Source of the DNA: Bacteroidota bacterium
GTDB lineage: Bacteria > Bacteroidota > Bacteroidia > Chitinophagales > JADIYW01
Reading direction: 5' to 3'
Assembly: GCA_963169645.1 (NCBI GenBank)
Contig: CAUJCO010000013.1
Coordinates: 719,923 to 783,922, forward strand
Length of the DNA stretch: 64,000 nt
Shown here in pieces: positions 49,022 to 51,653 of this stretch (its first letter is position 1; the number at the start of each line of letters is the position of its first letter). The notes beneath the pieces are model-generated. The model made no database searches. It saw nothing but the letters and a program-made list of their open reading frames with translations, and was not told the origin of the DNA. Position numbers and translations under genes: made by a program.

Positions 49022-50161
49022 TTATTGCAAAGCTTGTGCTAAATCTGCTATCAAATCATCTGCATCCTCAATCCCAATACTTAATCGGATTAAAGAATCT
49101 ACAACACCTGTTTTTTTACGTTCTTCAAATGGAATACTGGCATGTGTCATCGTTGCCGGATGTCCAATTAAAGATTCCACACCACCTAAAGATTCTGCTA
49201 ATGAAAATAATTGAGTAGATGAAAGTACTTTGTTGGCAGCTTCTATATTATCTTCTTTTAAAGAAAATGAAATCATCGCACCAAAATATTTCATTTGTTT
49301 TTTGGCAATTTCATGGCCCGGATGTTCCGTAAATCCTGGATAGTTGACGGTTTGTATTTTTGGATGAGCTTTTAAAAAGGCTGCAATTTTTTCTGCATTT
49401 TCGCAGGCACGTTGCACGCGAATATGTAGCGTTTTTATACCACGTAAAATTAAAAAACAATCTTGTGGGCCCGGCACTGCACCACACGCATTTTGTATAA
49501 AATAAAGTTGATCGGCTAATGCTTTGTCTTTAACGACAACAGCACCGTGAATTACATCGCTGTGACCGCCTAAATATTTAGTGGCAGAATGTACTACAAT
49601 GTCAGCACCTAAATCTAATGGTGTTTGCAAAAATGGCGATGCAAACGTATTATCTACACAAACTAGTATTTGGTTTTTTTTAGCCAATGCACAAACCGCA
49701 GCAATATCTACAATATTCAACATGGGGTTGGTAGGCGTTTCTATCCAAATAAGTTTGGTTTTATTGGTGATAGCTTGTTCTATATTGGAGATATTTGTCA
49801 TATCTACAAACGAAAAATCTAATCCTAATTTTCCGAATATTTTAGTGAAAATTCGATACGTTCCGCCGTATAAATCATTGCAAGAAATAATATGATCGCC
49901 GCTGCTGAATAATTTGGCAATCGCATCTGTAGCAGCTAAACCACTCGCAAAACAAACGCCATAATTGCCGTTTTCTAAGACTGCTAATTGATTTTGCAAC
50001 GTATGACGTGTTGGGTTGTGTGTACGTGCATATTCAAAACCTTTATGCACACCCGGAGCATCTTGTACATACGTAGATGTTTGAAAAATAGGCGTCATGA
50101 TGGCACCGGAACTGCTATCCGGCTCTATGCCTGCGTGAATTACTTTTGTTGCGAATTTCAT
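49022..50161 (-). CDS. Transsulfuration PLP enzyme (cystathionine gamma-lyase/synthase)
   Basis: 379 aa Cys/Met-metabolism aminotransferase fold. Landmarks are YARTHNPTRHTLQNQLA, ASGLAATDAIAK, VDNTFASPFLQTPLDLGADI, PLP-Lys in HSATKYLGGHSDVIHG (about 200) and SLGGVESLIGHPATMTHAS. Lyase (MccB/CTH, making cysteine) and synthase (MetB) cannot be separated by motif alone. A Cys-codon leader ORF and terminator lie upstream, which would favour a cysteine-producing lyase if it is a true attenuator. Confidence 0.9.
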   Translation of the reverse strand: MKFATKVIHAGIEPDSSSGAIMTPIFQTSTYVQDAPGVHKGFEYARTHNPTRHTLQNQLAVLENGNYGVCFASGLAATDAIAKLFSSGDHIISCNDLYGGTYRIFTKIFGKLGLDFSFVDMTNISNIEQAITNKTKLIWIETPTNPMLNIVDIAAVCALAKKNQILVCVDNTFASPFLQTPLDLGADIVVHSATKYLGGHSDVIHGAVVVKDKALADQLYFIQNACGAVPGPQDCFLILRGIKTLHIRVQRACENAEKIAAFLKAHPKIQTVNYPGFTEHPGHEIAKKQMKYFGAMISFSLKEDNIEAANKVLSSTQLFSLAESLGGVESLIGHPATMTHASIPFEERKKTGVVDSLIRLSIGIEDADDLIADLAQALQ

Positions 50162-50210: not shown

Positions 50211-50239
50211 ATAAAAAACCGTTTGCAAATACAAACGGT
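50211..50239 (-). terminator. Intrinsic terminator or attenuator before the transsulfuration gene
   Basis: Minus strand: ACCGTTTG (50239-50232), 6-nt loop, CAAACGGT (50225-50218), then TTTTT. It lies 50 bp before the transsulfuration start and 35 bp after the stop of the Cys leader ORF. It may also end the DUF1015 transcript from 50391. Confidence 0.8.
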
Positions 50240-50273
50240 CTTAAATCTTATTAATAATAAAATACTTTTCCCG

Positions 50274-50321
50274 TTATTCATTGGCATAACAACAGCAAGT
50301 ATCGTATTTCATTGTTTTCAT
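50274..50321 (-). promoter_or_regulatory. Candidate leader peptide with three Cys codons
   Basis: Minus-strand ORF MKTMKYDTCCCYANE, with stop TAA at 50276-50274. Codons TGC TGT TGT occupy 50297-50289. AACGG (50275-50271), overlapping the stop codon, can pair with CCGTT in the 5' arm of the terminator at 50239, giving a possible anti-terminator. TATTTTG (50342-50336) may be its -7 box. Confidence 0.5.
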
Positions 50322-50390: not shown

Positions 50391-51653
50391 CTATTTCCAT
50401 CCATCTTTCAGTTCATTAATCACTAAGCCGGATTTTAATTTGGGTTCAAACCAAGTAGATTTTGGTGGCATAATATTTCCGGTGTCTGCTATGTCAATGA
50501 GTTGATTTAACGAAACCGGATACAGTGCAAATGCAATTTTCATTTCACCGGAATCTACTCGATTTTGCAATTCACCTAACCCGCGAATGCCGCCAACAAA
50601 ATCTATGCGTTTGTCGGTGCGTTGGTCTTTAATGTTTAAGATGTCATCTAATACATAAGTTGACAAGATAGTAACATCTAACACTGCAATCGGATCGGTT
50701 TCATCGTAGGTGTTTTGCTTAGCCGTTAATTTATACCAATTGCCATCTACATACATAGAAAACTCGTGTAGTAATTGAGGTTTATAAATAGTGGTTCCTT
50801 TTTTTTCTACTTCAAAGTTTGCTTGTATTTTTTGTAGCAAAGTAGCTACATCTAAATCATTGGTATCTATAACGAGGCGATTATAATCTTGGATTTGCAA
50901 TTGATTGCTCGGAAATAAACAAGATAAAAAATAATTATATGCTTCGTTACCGGTGTGGTTTGGATTCGACTCTCGTAATTGTTTGCCTACTTTTGCCGAA
51001 GCTGCAGAACGATGGTGTCCATCTGCGATATAGCTAGCTTCTACTTTGGTAACAAACAATTCCACTAATTTTTGGATGATATTTTCATTGTCAATTTTCC
51101 AAAGTTGATGTCGTACTTCTTGAGAATCTACAAAATCATTTTCCGCCTCGTGGTGTTCGCAATAATGCTCGATAATCGCGTCAATTTCTGCTACGGATTT
51201 ATAGGTAAGAAAAACCATTCCGGGTTGAGCCATTTTGGTTTTCATGTGTTTGATGCGGTCGTTTTCTTTCGCTACTAATGTCAGCTCATGTTTTTTGATG
51301 TTGTTGTTGAAATAATCATCAATAGAGCTGCCGGCCACCAAACCAGTTTGTGTTCGGTTTTGCATGGTTTGTGCATAGATATATAAACATGGTTCGGCAT
51401 CTTTTACTAATATATTATCTTGAATAAAACCATCAAATATTTCTTTTCCTTTTTGATATACTTCTTCTGCGTATTGGTCTATCGGTTCATCAAAATTGAT
51501 TTCCGGTTTAGATATTCTTAAAAAGGAAAATGGATTGTTGGCGGCTTCTGCTTTTGCTTCTGCAGAGTTTAATACATCATAAGGTTTGGCGGCTACTTTA
51601 TCTACGATATCTTTTCGTGGTCGCAATCCTTTAAACGGTTTTATTGAAATCAT
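50391..51653 (-). CDS. DUF1015 family protein
   Basis: 420 aa, soluble. Family landmarks are IKPFKGLRPRKDIVDKVAAK at the N-terminus, PYDVLN, ELTLVAKENDRIKHM and the central IADGHHRSAASAKVG (about 214-228), with YNYFLSCLFPSNQLQIQDYN following. DUF1015 proteins are widespread, but their reaction is not established. It overlaps the S41 protease gene by 4 bp. Confidence 0.9.
   Translation of the reverse strand: MISIKPFKGLRPRKDIVDKVAAKPYDVLNSAEAKAEAANNPFSFLRISKPEINFDEPIDQYAEEVYQKGKEIFDGFIQDNILVKDAEPCLYIYAQTMQNRTQTGLVAGSSIDDYFNNNIKKHELTLVAKENDRIKHMKTKMAQPGMVFLTYKSVAEIDAIIEHYCEHHEAENDFVDSQEVRHQLWKIDNENIIQKLVELFVTKVEASYIADGHHRSAASAKVGKQLRESNPNHTGNEAYNYFLSCLFPSNQLQIQDYNRLVIDTNDLDVATLLQKIQANFEVEKKGTTIYKPQLLHEFSMYVDGNWYKLTAKQNTYDETDPIAVLDVTILSTYVLDDILNIKDQRTDKRIDFVGGIRGLGELQNRVDSGEMKIAFALYPVSLNQLIDIADTGNIMPPKSTWFEPKLKSGLVINELKDGWK

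Follow-up and report, generated by a model that had tools for sequence, protein, structure and literature searches.

The short reading frame with cysteine codons and the hairpin that precede a transsulfuration gene in the window (the whole 64,000-nt stretch of DNA that was analysed) very probably form a ribosome-mediated transcription attenuator that senses charged tRNA-Cys. Since several sulfur genes of many related Bacteroidota are preceded by the same arrangement, it is very probably a cysteine gauge that turns these genes on when cysteine is short. The window element appears to be one member of an undescribed regulon and not an isolated oddity. A sequence-only reading of this locus had already proposed a cysteine attenuator, a proposal that recurrence, spacing, pairing and covariation now support well at the level of sequence.

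The leader of the CGL/CGS gene

The gene presumed to be regulated (49022-50161, minus strand) encodes a 379-aa PLP transsulfuration enzyme of the cystathionine gamma-lyase/synthase family (CGL/CGS). It matches the NCBIfam model PRK07811 (cystathionine gamma-synthase) with 533.9 bits, above the cut-off, and secondly PRK07671 (gamma-lyase/homocysteine desulfhydrase) with 528.2 bits, below the cut-off of that model. Membership of the CGL/CGS family is clearly predicted, the gamma-synthase or gamma-lyase direction being left within this family label. On the same strand, the ORF list places an upstream gene at 50391-51653 that ends 69 nt short of the leader start; it was labelled DUF1015 by the sequence-only reading and has no NCBIfam match.

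Read directly on the minus strand, the leader ORF (50274-50321, 15 codons and a stop) encodes MKTMKYDTCCCYANE and its codons from 50321 to 50274 are ATG AAA ACA ATG AAA TAC GAT ACT TGC TGT TGT TAT GCC AAT GAA TAA. The three adjacent Cys codons, TGC TGT TGT (50289-50297), are the proposed stall site. A pause hairpin (strands 1:2, 50268-50298, minus strand) pairs the Cys-codon region with the stretch that holds AACGG; it is part of the minimum-energy fold and alone reaches about -7.3 kcal/mol in RNA folding. The motif AACGG (50271-50275, minus strand), the putative antiterminator strand (strand 2), overlaps the stop codon and starts 13 nt past the last Cys codon, which matches the position seen across the regulon. 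A small A+U hairpin (50245-50263, minus strand) lies inside the antiterminator loop in the fold of the stalled-state nascent RNA. It is followed by an intrinsic terminator (strands 3:4) with its U-run (50213-50242, minus strand), the 5' arm of which carries CCGTT at 50238-50234. The terminator stem (50242-50215) has 12 bp including G-U pairs, a loop ATTT and then TTTTTT, with an energy of about -13.5 to -14 kcal/mol; a simple terminator scan omitted this hairpin, although it is plainly present. On re-reading, the positions given earlier for the 15-codon ORF, the Cys codons, the stop, AACGG, CCGTT and the terminator were all correct.

For the 111-nt leader as a whole, the folding energy is -28.2 kcal/mol (z = -4.5 vs dinucleotide shuffles). 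ATG ORFs that have three adjacent Cys codons and do not exceed 45 codons occur on average 1.02 times per shuffled 64 kb and twice in the real window. Such an ORF together with a terminator stem of at least 8 bp was absent from all 60 shuffles, and the only one in the window is the 50321-50274 leader. The pairing between AACGG and CCGTT that had been claimed is present and forms in the simulated stalled state, but it is limited to 5 bp and is not significant alone (p = 0.19, spacer shuffles). With a simulated stalled ribosome, the AACGG:CCGUU antiterminator folds in the nascent RNA at -7.6 kcal/mol, and with a simulated ribosome at the stop codon it is absent (-1.3 kcal/mol). Since the complete terminator (-15.3 kcal/mol) is more stable than the antiterminator (-7.6 kcal/mol), antitermination would have to be kinetic. 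No promoter was found in the 69 nt that separate the leader from the upstream gene: Bacteroidota-type -7/-33 elements, looked for by eye, gave no clear match and a sigma-70 consensus scan was uninformative. An Rfam scan of the window at the gathering threshold gave a single match, a tRNA.

The region upstream of CGL/CGS was compared in eight genomes of the genus (this one and seven congeners), the relatives bearing names of uncultured Chitinophagales MAGs. In three of the seven congeners, the orthologue is preceded by an unlike leader peptide in which the Cys run is retained, with a terminator after it (MKNVQGNINCCCL, with a GTG start, MKSIFAVACCCCHGYPCRHR and MKSTNNNIKCCRINDKR), so that 4/8 genomes, own included, have both a Cys-run leader and a terminator at this place. 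One further congener has a remnant leader, MISTRKYVVCNC, with a decayed hairpin, another (G001) has a terminator without Cys ORF directly after the upstream gene, and two of the eight genomes have neither leader nor terminator. Outside the genus, none of the CGL/CGS orthologues in the sets examined has a three-Cys run then a terminator. Conservation of a Cys-run ORF before orthologues, suggested earlier as a check, is therefore found in three congeners but fails in the other four and in the orthologues examined beyond the genus. Likewise, some CGL/CGS homologues do lack the Cys run, which the sequence-only reading would have counted against an attenuator, but the device recurs before other cysteine genes. 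Because it is absent or degraded in 4/8 genomes of the genus and absent from the orthologues examined beyond it, the element before CGL/CGS is probably recent or unstable. Judged from these comparisons, this element would be genus-level and unstable, which the regulon as a whole is not. With its 5-bp antiterminator and a leader in 4/8 genus genomes, the window unit is a weak member of the regulon.

Such data might suggest that the hairpin does no more than end transcription of the upstream gene and that the Cys codons fall in a reading frame by chance: short ORFs with three Cys codons arise about once per shuffled 64 kb, G001 has a terminator alone at this place and the window antiterminator is not significant by itself. 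We nevertheless consider this explanation unlikely because three congeners keep the Cys run, in unlike peptides, between the upstream gene and CGL/CGS, because two more cysteine-pathway operons of the same genome bear the same device, and because spacing and antiterminator recur order-wide. The window hairpin may serve both roles, as terminator of the upstream gene and as part of an attenuator.

Cysteine-codon leaders before other sulfur genes

In the genome that holds the window, a Cys-run leader ORF and a terminator precede three steps leading to cysteine: sulfite reductase (SiR), O-acetylhomoserine sulfhydrylase and CGL/CGS. For instance, a leader ending in MNMFCCCCMTV, in frame and with a terminator, lies before the O-acetylhomoserine/O-acetylserine sulfhydrylase (OAHS; TIGR01326) at L004; the reading frame after this gene was recognised by eye and we take it to be MetX-like. 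At L165/L191, MKQIVSLYNCCCSNPQ and a terminator precede a NirA/sulfite-reductase-like protein identified by family search, and further downstream lies a reading frame that is, by eye, presumably SUMT (CobA)-like. The pattern used for this genome and the genus was ATGAA...(Cys)3, the screen of the own genome covering ATGAA-start leaders with at least three adjacent Cys codons. The Cys-run ORFs MKKNYCCC and MKINSMCCCRIIPI of the same genome, as well as MK..CCCIT directly before a Crp-like reading frame (L174/L183), were rejected as attenuators since the terminator is absent.

In 8/8 genomes of the genus, an encoded protein matches cystathionine beta-synthase (CBS) over its catalytic part, with a score below the family cut-off. 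No leader was found before these CBS-like genes. In the own genome, nothing closely matches the CysM-type synthase of the relatives. Together, SiR, the sulfhydrylase, the CBS-like protein and CGL point to a route from sulfite through sulfide, homocysteine and cystathionine to cysteine; three steps of this predicted route would bear Cys leaders.

Among relatives, with runs of at least two Cys codons counted, a Cys-run ORF precedes SiR at 14/15 testable loci, OAHS at 11/18 and the CysM-type cysteine synthase at about 15/23. In a wider draw of 199 Chitinophagales genomes, 48 have sulfite reductase. According to our own tally, which combines several locus sets of Chitinophagales, SiR or cysH-SiR has a clear Cys-run leader at 27 of 47 testable loci, a doubtful one at 3 and none within the stretch examined at 17. 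In g46, a large genus of the order, a leader before SiR is consistently absent within 1.5 kb (L379, L380, L382, L383, L385, L388, L390 and L393). Two Cys-ORF units in tandem, each usually with its own terminator, are found before SiR at eight loci (L375, L381, L384, L386, L387, L392, L395 and L404) and before CysM at L239, L240 and L245. We somewhat favor the view that Chitinophagales possess a lineage-specific cysteine regulon of several operons, whose cis-acting Cys-codon attenuators are gained and lost gene by gene and whose tandem pairs act as two serial checkpoints before SiR and cysteine synthase.

The longest Cys run reaches 10 codons, in a leader (MKINNNSSNFIKSTICCCCCCCCCCMLFKFLKTMI, L202) that ends 133 nt before SiR. 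Such runs could conceivably bind metal, and the Cys-rich peptide itself might act, for example as a metal- or redox-binding micropeptide whose location before sulfur genes is incidental. This seems hardly credible, as the peptides share almost nothing beyond the Cys run and their place before the antiterminator, the associated genes are cysteine-pathway genes, and the terminator/antiterminator logic would be left unexplained.

The distribution of the putative cysteine attenuators was also explored beyond these sets. In a more distant genome, from another family of the same class, a six-Cys leader and a terminator precede an operon recognised by eye as cobA-cysJ-cysI-like (L280/L360; L360:384-497), which suggests a wider or transferred distribution of the device. 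Outside Chitinophagales, only one of the 17 stretches upstream of SiR (L314) has a Cys run directly before SiR. Segetibacter, Sediminibacterium, Cyclobacterium, Neptunitalea, Zobellia and one Flavobacterium gave no convincing leader by the pattern used. A phylum-wide DNA pattern (five Cys codons near an A-run) was discarded, since it retrieved mostly Gln/Ala repeats and few true leaders.

Antiterminator pairing and covariation

For 43 units, the best pairing of the stretch from the last Cys codon to the terminator with the terminator 5' arm was compared with dinucleotide shuffles. It beats spacer shuffles at p<0.05 in 27/43 units, with a Fisher p of 1e-23; with one representative per gene and lineage (24 non-redundant groups), the Fisher combined p is about 2e-11. 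As many loci are related, the combined p-values overstate independence. The complementary segment begins 6-18 nt past the last Cys codon in 37/43 units, whereas random placement puts a mean of 13 and a maximum of 25 of the 43 in that interval (20,000 draws). It usually overlaps the stop codon or sits just before or near it. Given this position, the segment would be free when a ribosome stalls on the Cys codons and covered by a ribosome at the stop. For 17 further units, fetched later, the Fisher p is 3e-7 and 13/17 have the segment in the 6-18 nt place. Two Cys-run leaders before OAHS, L217 and L218, have G+C-richer hairpins of another sequence and an antiterminator pairing no better than shuffles.

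Covarying stems, the other check suggested by the sequence-only reading, were found in the best-aligned family, the SiR leaders of the genus (7 leaders from 7 genomes, 92 columns). One pair of the pause helix is A-U in some leaders and G-C in others, and two terminator pairs are changed on both sides; together, 95% of the cells of these two helices pair vs 25-45% when slid. For the antiterminator, 56/56 cells pair, with one-sided changes, and slid controls give 24-47%; one column control is uninformative here because every column combination pairs.

Some leaders have no terminator by the scan used, e.g. before cysH in L354, L405 and L406. In the cultured Gynurincola endophyticus (L354:1432-1527), the leader ends in MMATCCCC, 47 nt before cysH (identified by eye), and no clear terminator is seen in this 47-nt gap, which possibly reflects a different mode of control. 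In Actinobacteria, mycobacteria included, poly-Cys uORFs have been described without conserved terminator hairpins (PMC1262725), and those of mycobacteria have been discussed in terms of translation attenuation (PMC13236596). Terminator-less poly-Cys uORFs are known in mycobacteria (PMC1262725; Canestrari et al. 2020, via PMC13236596), so the Cys-run leaders could likewise act on translation or on Rho-dependent termination, without an intrinsic terminator. For the elements described here this is very unlikely, since most units consist of a hairpin, a U-run and a strand that is complementary to the 5' arm and placed for masking by a ribosome.

Proposed control and relation to known systems

From the layout of the leader, we infer translation, stalling, antitermination and a response to cysteine as follows. 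As RNA polymerase transcribes the leader, a ribosome would be translating MKTMKYDTCCC... With ample Cys-tRNA, this ribosome would go on to the stop and cover strand 2 (AACGG), strands 3 and 4 would form the terminator and transcription would end short of the gene. With too little Cys-tRNA, the ribosome would stall on the Cys codons, strand 2 lying just past its leading edge; free strand 2 would then pair with CCGUU of the terminator 5' arm, the terminator would be blocked and CGL/CGS would be made. If the leader is not translated, the 1:2 hairpin would hide strand 2, making termination the default. The same device would control sulfite reductase (cysH-SiR in some genomes), OAHS and cysteine synthase across Chitinophagales.

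Several properties of attenuators are found here. In the window and in relatives, a short leader ORF enriched for one codon precedes the gene, and an intrinsic terminator lies between them. An antiterminator exclusive with the terminator is supported regulon-wide by the statistics and the alignment. Strand 2 is placed to be free at stalled codons and masked at the stop, according to its position in the units analysed and to the window fold. Finally, the genes serve the amino acid of the leader: CGL/CGS, OAHS, SiR and CysM were assigned by family search, and cysH and cobA-cysJI by eye as leader-linked cysteine genes.

In the classical amino-acid attenuators of Proteobacteria (trp, his, leu and others), the leader ORF contains codons of the regulated amino acid. 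The elements described here resemble them by their leader ORF, their pause, antiterminator and terminator strands and an antiterminator that a ribosome at the stop can mask. They differ by their cysteine codons and their occurrence in Bacteroidota, and no sequence relation is claimed. According to a survey from 2010, leader-peptide systems had until then been demonstrated in two groups only, Proteobacteria and Actinobacteria, to which it added Firmicutes (PMC2965389). The poly-Cys uORFs found before cys operons and cbs in mycobacteria and in other Actinobacteria share Cys runs before cysteine-synthesis genes and are reported to be cysteine-responsive; the mycobacterial type is leaderless, and conserved terminator hairpins are missing from these uORFs, whereas here intrinsic terminators occur in most units and, with antiterminators, are the rule. 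In Rhodobacterales, the uORFC-8-2 motif before cysS comprises two Cys codons and a terminator, and ribosome-mediated attenuation has been proposed for it (PMC8632094). According to its description, this alphaproteobacterial motif is alike in that its uORF has tandem Cys codons, which lie within a stem, and in its terminator stem, but it targets cysteinyl-tRNA synthetase and has two conserved Cys codons; the leaders described here precede SiR, cysH, OAHS, cysteine synthase and CGL/CGS, have 2-10 Cys codons and include tandem units. Two short leader ORFs also control the mgtCBR operon of Salmonella; that system does not concern cysteine, whereas the tandem loci described here have two complete units, each of a Cys-ORF and a terminator, in front of a single gene.

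In agreement with the sequence-only reading, the open-access literature that was searched yielded no cysteine attenuator in Bacteroidota. Since Cys leaders are known in Actinobacteria and Rhodobacterales and none was found for Bacteroidota, the kind is known, and this set of members with its tandem pairs appears undescribed. If this interpretation is true, Bacteroidota gain a described cysteine-sensing system, which would explain how a whole sulfur-assimilation pathway is controlled without a dedicated regulator protein and would imply that transcription and translation are coupled tightly enough for attenuation in this phylum. Moreover, since such leaders are gained and lost before one gene within a single genus, they offer a good case for watching attenuators arise. 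For sulfur operons of uncultured Bacteroidota, a Cys-run ORF followed by a terminator could serve as a simple annotation rule.
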